Assembly (NCBI RefSeq): GCF_000407185.1
Contig: NZ_KE136483.1
Coordinates: 248,001 to 312,000 of the forward strand
Source: Enterococcus malodoratus ATCC 43197
Lineage (GTDB): Bacteria > Bacillota > Bacilli > Lactobacillales > Enterococcaceae
Reading direction: 5' to 3'
Length of the DNA stretch: 64,000 bases
Below are positions 21,008-21,311 of this stretch, one piece after another. Below the pieces are notes generated by a model that saw only the letters and a list, made by a program, of their open reading frames with translations, was not told the origin of the DNA and did not search any database. The position numbers were made by a program, and so were the translations under genes. The stretch's first letter is position 1. Every line of letters begins with the position of its first letter.

Positions 21008-21037
21008 GAATCCAATCATTTAAGGAGGTCAGGACTC

Positions 21038-21136
21038 ATGGCAAACAACATTGCGAAACGTAATTTTCAAACAGTTCAATCAGCATGTTGTTGTATGGTG
21101 CAAAAAAGCAGCATACTACTTTGTCATGTCTATTAA
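21038..21136 (+). CDS. Poly-cysteine leader peptide 1 (32 aa)
   Basis: A short ORF with an excellent AAGGAGG (21022-21028) 9 bases before its ATG. It encodes a 32-residue peptide with three consecutive Cys at residues 17-19 (TGT TGT TGT at 21086-21094) and a fourth Cys at residue 29. It has no signal peptide or domain. It lies in the leader of an operon for cysteine metabolism and cystine uptake and is followed by a terminator at 21188-21224. I infer a sensor of Cys-tRNA charging: ribosomes pausing at CCC would alter folding of the leader RNA. GGTGCAA (21097-21103), right after the Cys codons, can pair with TTGCACC in the terminator 3' arm. Confidence 0.75.
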   Translation: MANNIAKRNFQTVQSACCCMVQKSSILLCHVY

Positions 21137-21187
21137 CTGTTCTGAACTCGTTTAAAAAGAGGAAACTTCTAATTTTTTGACGAATCC

Positions 21188-21224
21188 AAGAGGTGCAGCT
21201 TTAATAGCTTGCACCTCTTTTTTT
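21188..21224 (+). terminator. Leader terminator (attenuator) of the cysteine operon
   Basis: AAGAGGTGCAGCT pairs with AGCTTGCACCTCTT (one bulged base), followed by seven T. It lies between the two poly-Cys ORFs and 88 bases before the first enzyme gene, so readthrough is needed for expression from the leader promoter. Confidence 0.85.
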
Positions 21225-21255
21225 GTACCTAAAATTCGAGATAGGGGGAACCGGC

Positions 21256-21297
21256 ATGTGTTGTTGCTTAATCGATGAACGCAAAAAAACTTACTAA
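21256..21297 (+). CDS. Poly-cysteine leader peptide 2 (13 aa)
   Basis: [13 protein letters not shown]. Three Cys codons (TGT TGT TGC) follow directly after the ATG. AGGGGG lies about 7 bases upstream. The stop is 2 bases before the AGGAGG (21300-21305) of the downstream enzyme gene, so ribosomes translating or stalled on this ORF would affect initiation there. It lies after the terminator, so it can act only on readthrough transcripts, at the level of translation or message stability. Confidence 0.7.
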
Positions 21298-21311
21298 CAG
21301 GAGGAACTATT

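Follow-up and report, generated by a model that had tools for sequence, protein, structure and literature searches.

The window analyzed here is a stretch of 64,000 nucleotides from Enterococcus malodoratus ATCC 43197, whose genome, carrying the leader described below, measures 4.62 Mb. The interval between dapB and a gene for a transsulfuration enzyme contains, in this order, a short open reading frame (ORF1), an intrinsic terminator, and a second short open reading frame (ORF2), and three genes for a cystine-type ABC importer follow (Table 1). The initial annotation had described two poly-Cys ORFs, each led by a Shine-Dalgarno (SD) sequence, with a terminator between them, and the coordinates, the SD sequences, and the predicted stem confirm this arrangement. 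Counting both strands, the window has just two SD-led ORFs of 60 codons or fewer in which three Cys codons stand in a row, against a random expectation of 0.23 on average and 1 at most (30 first-order Markov sequences). ORF1 encodes a peptide beginning with MANNIAKRNFQTVQSACCC, and the SD of the transsulfuration gene (AGGAGG) begins one base past the end of the ORF2 stop codon. From the consensus match of the promoter-like sequence alone, the RNA would start near 21014, and a closely similar stretch is also found in same-genus leaders.

Table 1. Positions in the window of the leader features and neighboring genes
Feature	Position	Strand	Details
dapB	20032-20856		Mechanically called ORF, 5' neighbor of the leader
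Promoter-like sequence	20979-21007	+	TTGACT-17 nt-TAAATT, TG before second hexamer; 9 of 12 sigma-70-like matches, consensus match only
Helix P0, 5' strand CATGGCAAA	21037-21045	+	Covers ORF1 start codon; complementary to 21120-21128
ORF1, leader peptide MANNIAKRNFQTVQSACCCMVQKSSILLCHVY	21038-21136	+	SD AAGGAGGT; ATG 21038-21040; Cys codons 21086-21094; stop TAA 21134-21136
Hairpin 1, GTATGGTGC-AAAAAA-GCAGCATAC	21093-21116	+	Starts in third Cys codon; possible transcription pause hairpin
Helix P0, 3' strand TTTGTCATG	21120-21128	+	Complementary to ORF1 start region
Antiterminator strand CTATTAACTGTTCT	21130-21143	+	Contains ORF1 stop codon; pairs with terminator 5' arm and loop
Intrinsic terminator	21188-21224	+	Stem 21188-21219; loop TTAATAG 21201-21207; T-run 21218-21224; predicted -19.7 kcal/mol
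ORF2	21256-21297	+	SD AGGGGG 21243-21248; Cys codons 21259-21267
Transsulfuration enzyme (cystathionine gamma-synthase/lyase family)	21312-22463	+	ATG at 21312; NF004821, 675.5 versus cutoff 642
Cystine-type ABC importer, substrate-binding protein	22497-23279	+	Best model NF008426, below cutoff
Cystine-type ABC importer, permease	23298-23951	+	Best model NF011680, below cutoff
Cystine-type ABC importer, ATPase	23963-24694	+	Best model NF008428, below cutoff (scanned from 23966)

The assignment of a transsulfuration gene and a cystine-type importer to the region 3' of the leader is in line with NCBIfam models, with cystine models ranking first for all three importer genes, each under its curated cutoff. 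The ATG of the ATPase sits within a longer mechanical ORF (23897-24694). The transsulfuration enzyme scores above the cutoff for a cystathionine gamma-synthase model and slightly under that for a cystathionine gamma-lyase/homocysteine desulfhydrase model (NF005810; 573.7 versus 594), and of its solved-structure matches the first is named gamma-synthase and the second gamma-lyase. As a lyase it would produce cysteine; as a synthase it would consume it. For a cysK-like protein found after a related leader (L048), a cystathionine beta-synthase model gives the best E-value, followed by cysteine synthase models, all below cutoff; MccA and MccB of Bacillus subtilis are presumably names that would fit the cysK-like/transsulfuration pair. 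The window's enzyme has a 70% identical counterpart encoded on a contig titled Helicobacter heilmannii (NZ_CDMK01000001.1; L143), a closeness similar to that of other Lactobacillales proteins.

ORF1 precedes cysteine genes across much of Enterococcaceae

Searching 105 Enterococcaceae genomes with a covariance model of the element core, we recovered 57 copies of the ORF1 element from 48 genomes, representing 7 of 17 genera. The downstream gene, judged in all 57 copies from the beginning of its translation and from homologue searches, reads as a cysteine gene without exception: 41 are cysK-like, 15 encode a transsulfuration enzyme, and one a cystine-type binding protein (L103). The ORF1 start codon and SD are present in every copy, and 53 of the 57 have three to four consecutive Cys codons, the exceptions being L088 (CCFC), L100 (CC), L103 (CC), and L104 (C). 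Across the copies, Cys is written as TGT 166 times and as TGC 19 times. The initial annotation had read the leader as cysteine sensing and proposed aligning it across relatives; the Cys codons prove conserved in that comparison, and together with the cysteine genes downstream they support such a reading. A decayed copy, L104 (G016:C32:194630-196223; MANRQLLTTVCWTMVRKK), has lost the Cys run (CWT, one Cys codon remaining) and the usual stop, with its cysK-like gene still open and intact.

Within the genus, the element travels together with the cysteine genes. It is present in 15 of the 20 same-genus genomes, all of which were searched, and the remaining five lack both a cysK-like gene (E up to 1e-90) and any transsulfuration homologue that exceeds 50% identity to the window's enzyme. 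All nine genus genomes with a cysK-like gene have a copy of the element before that gene. The leader of Enterococcus hermanniensis DSM 17122 (L142) is closely similar to that of the window. At the family level, 48 genomes have a cysK-like gene (E up to 1e-95) and 40 of these have the element; the other eight all belong to one genus (g15), and the six of them that were examined contain a different Cys leader (SYSCCQ...) followed by a hairpin and terminator of its own. These g15 leaders (L242-L247) are Cys-Cys leaders of entirely different RNA sequence before a cysK-like gene, and in the three of six that were folded, the order of parts is similar: a helix involving the first part of ORF1, a hairpin, and a terminator.

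The element also occurs in Enterococcus faecalis. In strain IDRL-9065, the gene order is efp, leader ORF, cysteine synthase family protein, and cystathionine gamma-synthase, and the 45-codon leader ORF (L241:2959-3096 in NZ_CP143580.1) is annotated as hypothetical protein WP_002355203.1, a Cys leader of the same type (MTKKQASPFLETESCCCMVQNSAAYS...). A plasmid search returned a single weak match, which proved to be the E. faecalis leader.

Downstream of the Cys codons, ORF1 ends in several ways. Its stop lies at +48 (the window type), +60, +66, +75, +78, or +93, and at +24 in the decayed L104, because differing lengths of hairpin loop or spacer change the frame. The sequence around TTTGTCATGYCTATTAA stays unchanged among copies despite these differences in frame, and it is therefore the RNA, not the peptide tail, that is conserved.

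Conserved predicted pairings in the leader RNA

A hairpin followed by a T-run is found in all 57 copies (-12.8 to -23.5 kcal/mol). A pattern scan of the window's region reported no terminator, probably owing to a bulge in the stem. In L037, L038, L039, L041, and L042, approximately 135 to 530 extra bases lie between terminator and ORF2, with both ORFs kept; some of these stretches show, by eye, repeats of the form GTACGAAAATA...TTTTTC...GAAAAATGA and are possibly small mobile or palindromic elements.

The loop of the terminator (UUAAUAG) has a recurring partner upstream in the sequence CUAUUAA. For 55 copies we folded the run-up RNA, which begins at hairpin 1 and ends with the terminator loop, so that the 3' arm is absent; L104, with no matching loop, and L105, with no CTATTAA, were left out. 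In 54 of the 55, the minimum free energy structure joins five or more of the seven CTATTAA bases to the loop (four in the exception, L100), and each of the seven pairs is retained in 27 to 34 of the 34 different strand pairs. The antiterminator duplex reaches -9.3 versus -5.5 for a dinucleotide-shuffled strand, with the cognate strand better in 34/34 distinct pairs. When partners are permuted among copies, 85 of 5,000 permutations are as good for the 34 distinct pairs, and 1,002 of 5,000 after collapse to 10 haplotypes. Covariation in the antiterminator is weak, and the CUAUUAA/UUAAUAG core is nearly invariant. In L105 and in the E. faecalis leader L241, neither CUAUUAA nor UUAAUAG was found, a state that fits the joint loss of both partners, and another antiterminator would therefore be needed there.

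Two further pairings pointed out in the initial annotation do not recur. That of GGTGCAA with TTGCACC in the terminator is possible in the window but is not conserved, as GGTGC differs little from copy to copy and the terminator 3' arm varies (GCACC, GCGCC, GTGCC, GTACC, GCTCC, and GTAGC among the copies). ACTTCT, which was proposed to pair with the terminator 5' arm, belongs to a minor local hairpin of the spacer and is missing from, e.g., L042 and L045.

Hairpin 1, which begins within the third Cys codon, is paired in 89.3% of cells over 30 sequences, and its central G-G mismatch becomes A-U in 2 of the 30. Two of its pairs are changed on both sides, versus 0.3 in shuffled alignments (3 of 500 reach two); further pair types show no excess over shuffles (155/500). 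Shifting the register by +3 gives a higher covariation score (0.123 versus 0.077) with fewer paired cells (66.0%). Drawing on the general distance of hairpin pauses, a pause would be expected 11 bases past hairpin 1, at U21127 before G21128. L137-L139, L148, L150, and the g15 leaders have a hairpin of other sequence at the same place.

The stretch immediately 3' of hairpin 1, TTTGTCATG, is complementary to the ORF1 start region (CATGRCAAA), forming helix P0. In 56 of the 57 copies, this duplex is predicted to be at least as stable as -6.7 kcal/mol, L095 being poor (-4.4), and it averages -10.0 over 47 distinct pairs, versus -3.5 with a shuffled partner and -3.0 with another ORF1 stretch. Permuting the partners among copies has no effect (1,143 of 5,000 as good), as expected for strands with so little variation. 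L090, L093, and L100 are altered on both sides (ATGGCA with TTTGCCATG), as are L141 (ATGACGAGC with TTCGTCGTG) and L136 (TAGCAAA with TTTGCTA). Pairing between the first part of ORF1 and a stretch 3' of hairpin 1 recurs in the 12 leaders examined for it, including the window's own (L032) and the L105-type L241, with z scores from -1.6 to -4.8, so that taken alone it is weak in some of them; in L246, the P0-like pairing lies within ORF1, not at the start codon. We also considered a long AACAGTT.../...AACTGTT helix as a general sequestering stem. It is present in the window, and its strands occur in most same-genus transsulfuration copies; the candidate was rejected, the strands being absent from cysK-type copies.

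A putative transcription attenuator reading Cys codons

We propose that ORF1 and the terminator very probably constitute a ribosome-mediated transcription attenuator that reads the supply of charged Cys-tRNA. The Cys codons, the conserved complementarities, and the association with cysteine genes are directly observed. The anatomy is that of a leader-peptide attenuator: a short SD-led ORF in which codons for the amino acid of the pathway follow one another (53/57 copies), an intrinsic terminator between leader ORF and gene (57/57), and an antiterminator that excludes the terminator and could be masked by a ribosome at the stop (54/55 by folding, and not found in L105 or L241). Every step in the cell we infer from this anatomy and its conservation. 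When cysteine is ample, the leading ribosome would pass the Cys codons and rest at or soon after CUAUUAA; there, it would mask this strand, within which the UAA stop lies in the window, and the terminator would form (OFF). When Cys-tRNA is short, a ribosome stalled on the ORF1 Cys codons would cover the 5' arm of hairpin 1 and leave CUAUUAACUGUUCU free for the emerging loop and 5' arm of the terminator, which would then fail (ON). Stalling at the Cys codons would favor the antiterminator, and expression is therefore expected to be ON at low cysteine, a direction argued from anatomy that the initial annotation had not settled. After synthesis of UUUGUCAUG, helix P0 could shut the ORF1 start codon and would probably bar later ribosomes from ORF1.

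The masking step depends on where ORF1 ends. Its stop follows the start of CUAUUAA by 4, 17, 20, 23, 32, or 35 bases (-21 in the decayed L104), and only where the stop is near, as in the window, would a ribosome resting there clearly mask the strand in full.

We modeled the stalled state by deleting all RNA from the 5' end to a point 18 bases downstream of the first Cys base. Predicted pairing of CUAUUAA with the loop then averages 0.53 in the 15 transsulfuration copies, 0.85 in the eight cysK copies of the genus, and 0.86 in the 32 others, with 0.59 in the window. Individual copies range lower: L035-L038 and L042 lie at 0.37 to 0.45 and L046, L048, and L087 at 0.19 to 0.27, and L043 and L044 have zero loop pairing. 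Without a ribosome, loop pairing in the same three groups averages 0.03, 0.18, and 0.49, and CUAUUAA pairs upstream instead with means of 0.24, 0.46, and 0.17; upstream pairing is 0.57 in the window and at least 0.5 in 9 of the 23 genus copies. Given this low loop pairing in the window's group, the antiterminator is predicted to form rarely in an untranslated leader, which is compatible with an OFF default there. The untranslated leader is not uniformly predicted to be OFF, as the mean loop pairing of 0.49 outside the window's genus indicates.

ORF2 and its putative role in translation

ORF2 is confined to one type of leader. An SD-led ORF beginning MCC is present in 14 of the 15 transsulfuration leaders (all except L046) and, within 700 bases, in 0 of the 42 other copies; with this conservation, ORF2 is probably functional. 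A search of the 20 genus genomes for an SD followed by ATG-TGY-TGY gave ten occurrences, nine of them at the ORF2 place. A match of the ORF2 pattern in L225, at the start of another gene, was set aside as chance. Only ATG TGT TGT is conserved, with codon 4 encoding Cys in nine copies, Arg in four, and His in one. A pairing of ORF2 with the hairpin 1 3' arm, noticed by eye, was dropped in view of this variable codon 4. ORF2 comprises 9 to 18 codons and ends 1 to 30 bases before the gene (60 in L045), and its start lies 55 to 60 bases from the gene start in 13 of the 14 copies (93 in L045). This steady start distance beside a moving stop suggests a role for the placement of a ribosome at the ORF2 start; the distance may also reflect plain descent, the copies being related.

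ORF2 probably acts on translation. In the window, the interval from ORF2 to the gene contains no terminator, and 13 sequences folded singly showed no common RNA fold there that might link ORF2 to initiation at the gene, as the dual control suggested in the initial annotation would have it. Judging from usual footprints, ribosomes at the ORF2 start and at the gene start should not touch. ORF2 may well add a further Cys-responsive step, at the level of translation, to the control of this gene, a weaker inference than the ORF1 attenuator. At low Cys, a ribosome held at codons 2 to 4, some 55 bases upstream, would leave the gene start free, and at high Cys, ribosomes that finish ORF2 1 to 30 bases short of the gene start (60 bases in one species) would hinder initiation. 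The leader as a whole would then comprise two serial Cys checkpoints, an ORF1 attenuator at which a single pioneer ribosome decides for each transcript before P0 shuts the start codon, and an ORF2 translational gate on the mRNAs that escape termination, a combination that we consider possible and somewhat doubtful.

A serious competitor, which falls only a little short of probable, is that ORF2 senses nothing and is a translated spacer or coupling ORF that aids initiation or protects the mRNA. The variable codon 4, which restricts conservation to ATG TGT TGT, and the fixed start distance would both be expected of such an ORF. However, its two Cys codons are kept in 14/14 copies beside a strong SD and later codons drift, which argues for selection on Cys, and the clustering of the SD-ATG-TGY-TGY pattern at this one place in the genus points in the same direction.

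Alternative readings of the leader

Both ORFs could instead tune translation of the downstream gene, with the terminator secondary, as in mycobacteria, where poly-Cys short ORFs are reported to act as Cys-responsive attenuators (Canestrari 2020, cited as translation attenuation in PMC13236596). The place of ORF2 on the 3' side of the terminator, kept even where long extra stretches intervene, agrees with such translational attenuation. For ORF1, however, the terminator-like hairpin and T-run follow in every copy, in 54 of 55 the loop can pair with a strand of the leader that is itself conserved, and the 13 folded sequences share no structure that would hide the gene SD. We regard this account as unlikely, and transcription attenuation at ORF1 remains our preferred reading.

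The strong conservation of nucleotides past the Cys codons irrespective of frame could also be that of an RNA sensing something else, as a riboswitch, T-box, or protein-binding RNA would, with the Cys codons incidental. Against this very improbable alternative, no Rfam family, be it T-box, S-box, or another cis-element, reaches its gathering score in positions 20000-27000, and the sole match at E up to 1 in positions 20980-21330 is a microRNA family far under its threshold (22.2 versus 62.5 bits). The Cys codons, moreover, persist through TGT/TGC changes and reappear in leaders whose sequence is quite different. That the nascent poly-Cys peptide senses metal or oxidation, to which Cys runs in general could respond by binding metals or becoming oxidized, rather than Cys-tRNA supply is the least credible account, given that the peptide 3' of the Cys run differs in frame among copies and that the downstream genes are cysteine supply genes.

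Poly-Cys leaders beyond Enterococcaceae

A second model, applied with stricter filters to 395 genomes from the order, gave matches in 37, six of them outside Enterococcaceae. Five of these six are real by inspection (L136-L139 and L141); the sixth, L140 (G424), has no Cys run at the site and was judged a chance match. By eye, the next gene is cysK-like in L136 and L139, L137 has a MetA-like gene followed by a cysK-like one, and a cystine-type binding protein lies downstream in L141 and, at approximately 330 bases, in L138.

In addition, we scanned the surroundings of 80 relatives of the transsulfuration gene (610 kb) for short ORFs (60 codons at most) that combine three Cys codons with an SD under a loose definition, and obtained 15 ORFs (16 lines, as L169 appears twice). 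Eight lie directly before a transsulfuration or cysK-like gene (L142, L145, L148, L150, L169, L173, L179, and L209), and one (L193) precedes what appears by eye to be another sulfur amino acid PLP enzyme. Two more (L174 and L189) also precede genes, and L194, L199, L204, and L205 lie elsewhere. A stable hairpin with a T-run separates ORF and gene in L145, L148, L150, L173, L179, and L209 (-18.6 to -21.9 kcal/mol). Poly-Cys leaders with terminators before related genes thus also occur in Companilactobacillus, Marinilactibacillus, and Clostridia. The clostridial leader ORFs (L169:3308, L179:3309, L209:3281, and L193:1080) are of another type, ending in RC or RCR, with transsulfuration-type genes and GCCCGG-type stems downstream and, in L169 and L179, a second Cys run.

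Comparison with known systems

T-boxes, S-boxes, or protein regulators are generally seen as the means of cysteine control in Firmicutes. Here, we describe a predicted Cys leader-peptide attenuator that is conserved over much of Enterococcaceae (48 of 105 genomes), E. faecalis included, with poly-Cys leaders also present in other Lactobacillales and in Clostridia. If true, this would add a codon-level cysteine sensor, make regulon membership predictable from sequence, and allow a small "hypothetical protein" to be reannotated. The mycobacterial poly-Cys ORFs of Canestrari (2020) are said to be leaderless, Cys-responsive attenuators; unlike these, ORF1 is SD led in 57/57 copies, and the combination of a leaderless ORF with no intrinsic terminator is not what we find here. 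The cysteine and Enterococcus passages of a T-box survey make no mention of this element (PMC2494555), and the open-licence literature found, mostly titles and abstract openings, describes no poly-Cys leader for Firmicutes.

The closest parallels each share part of this arrangement. The Rli60 leader of the ilv-leu operon in Listeria monocytogenes, a tested Firmicutes leader peptide, is likewise a Gram-positive ribosome-mediated transcription attenuator with pathway codons in the leader ORF and an antiterminator competing with a terminator, but it responds to branched-chain amino acids through one 13-codon ORF without a Cys run (PMC5864092). Leader peptides have also been predicted for hisS paralogues in bacilli (PMC2965389). 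In Actinobacteria, short ORFs with runs of Cys codons precede cys/cbs operons, as ORF1 precedes cysteine genes, whereas no conserved terminator hairpin was found there in Mycobacterium and an intrinsic terminator with an antiterminator is found here (PMC1262725). Attenuation through tandem Cys codons, stems, and a terminal U-run has been proposed for uORFC-8-2 before cysS in Rhodobacterales, in this case in Alphaproteobacteria, before an aminoacyl-tRNA synthetase gene, and with one ORF of two Cys codons (PMC8632094). The mgtCBR leader of Salmonella also combines two short ORFs, as tandem attenuators, but for two signals (ATP and proline); in our leader both ORFs contain Cys codons, and ORF2 is followed by no terminator in the window and no shared structure in 13 sequences (PMC3641672). 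The stacked ORF2 raises the question of whether one amino acid is read twice per leader, in transcription and then in translation. Taken together, the element would represent a known kind of attenuator in a version built on Cys codons, with an unusual helix predicted to close the ORF1 start and a second Cys ORF.
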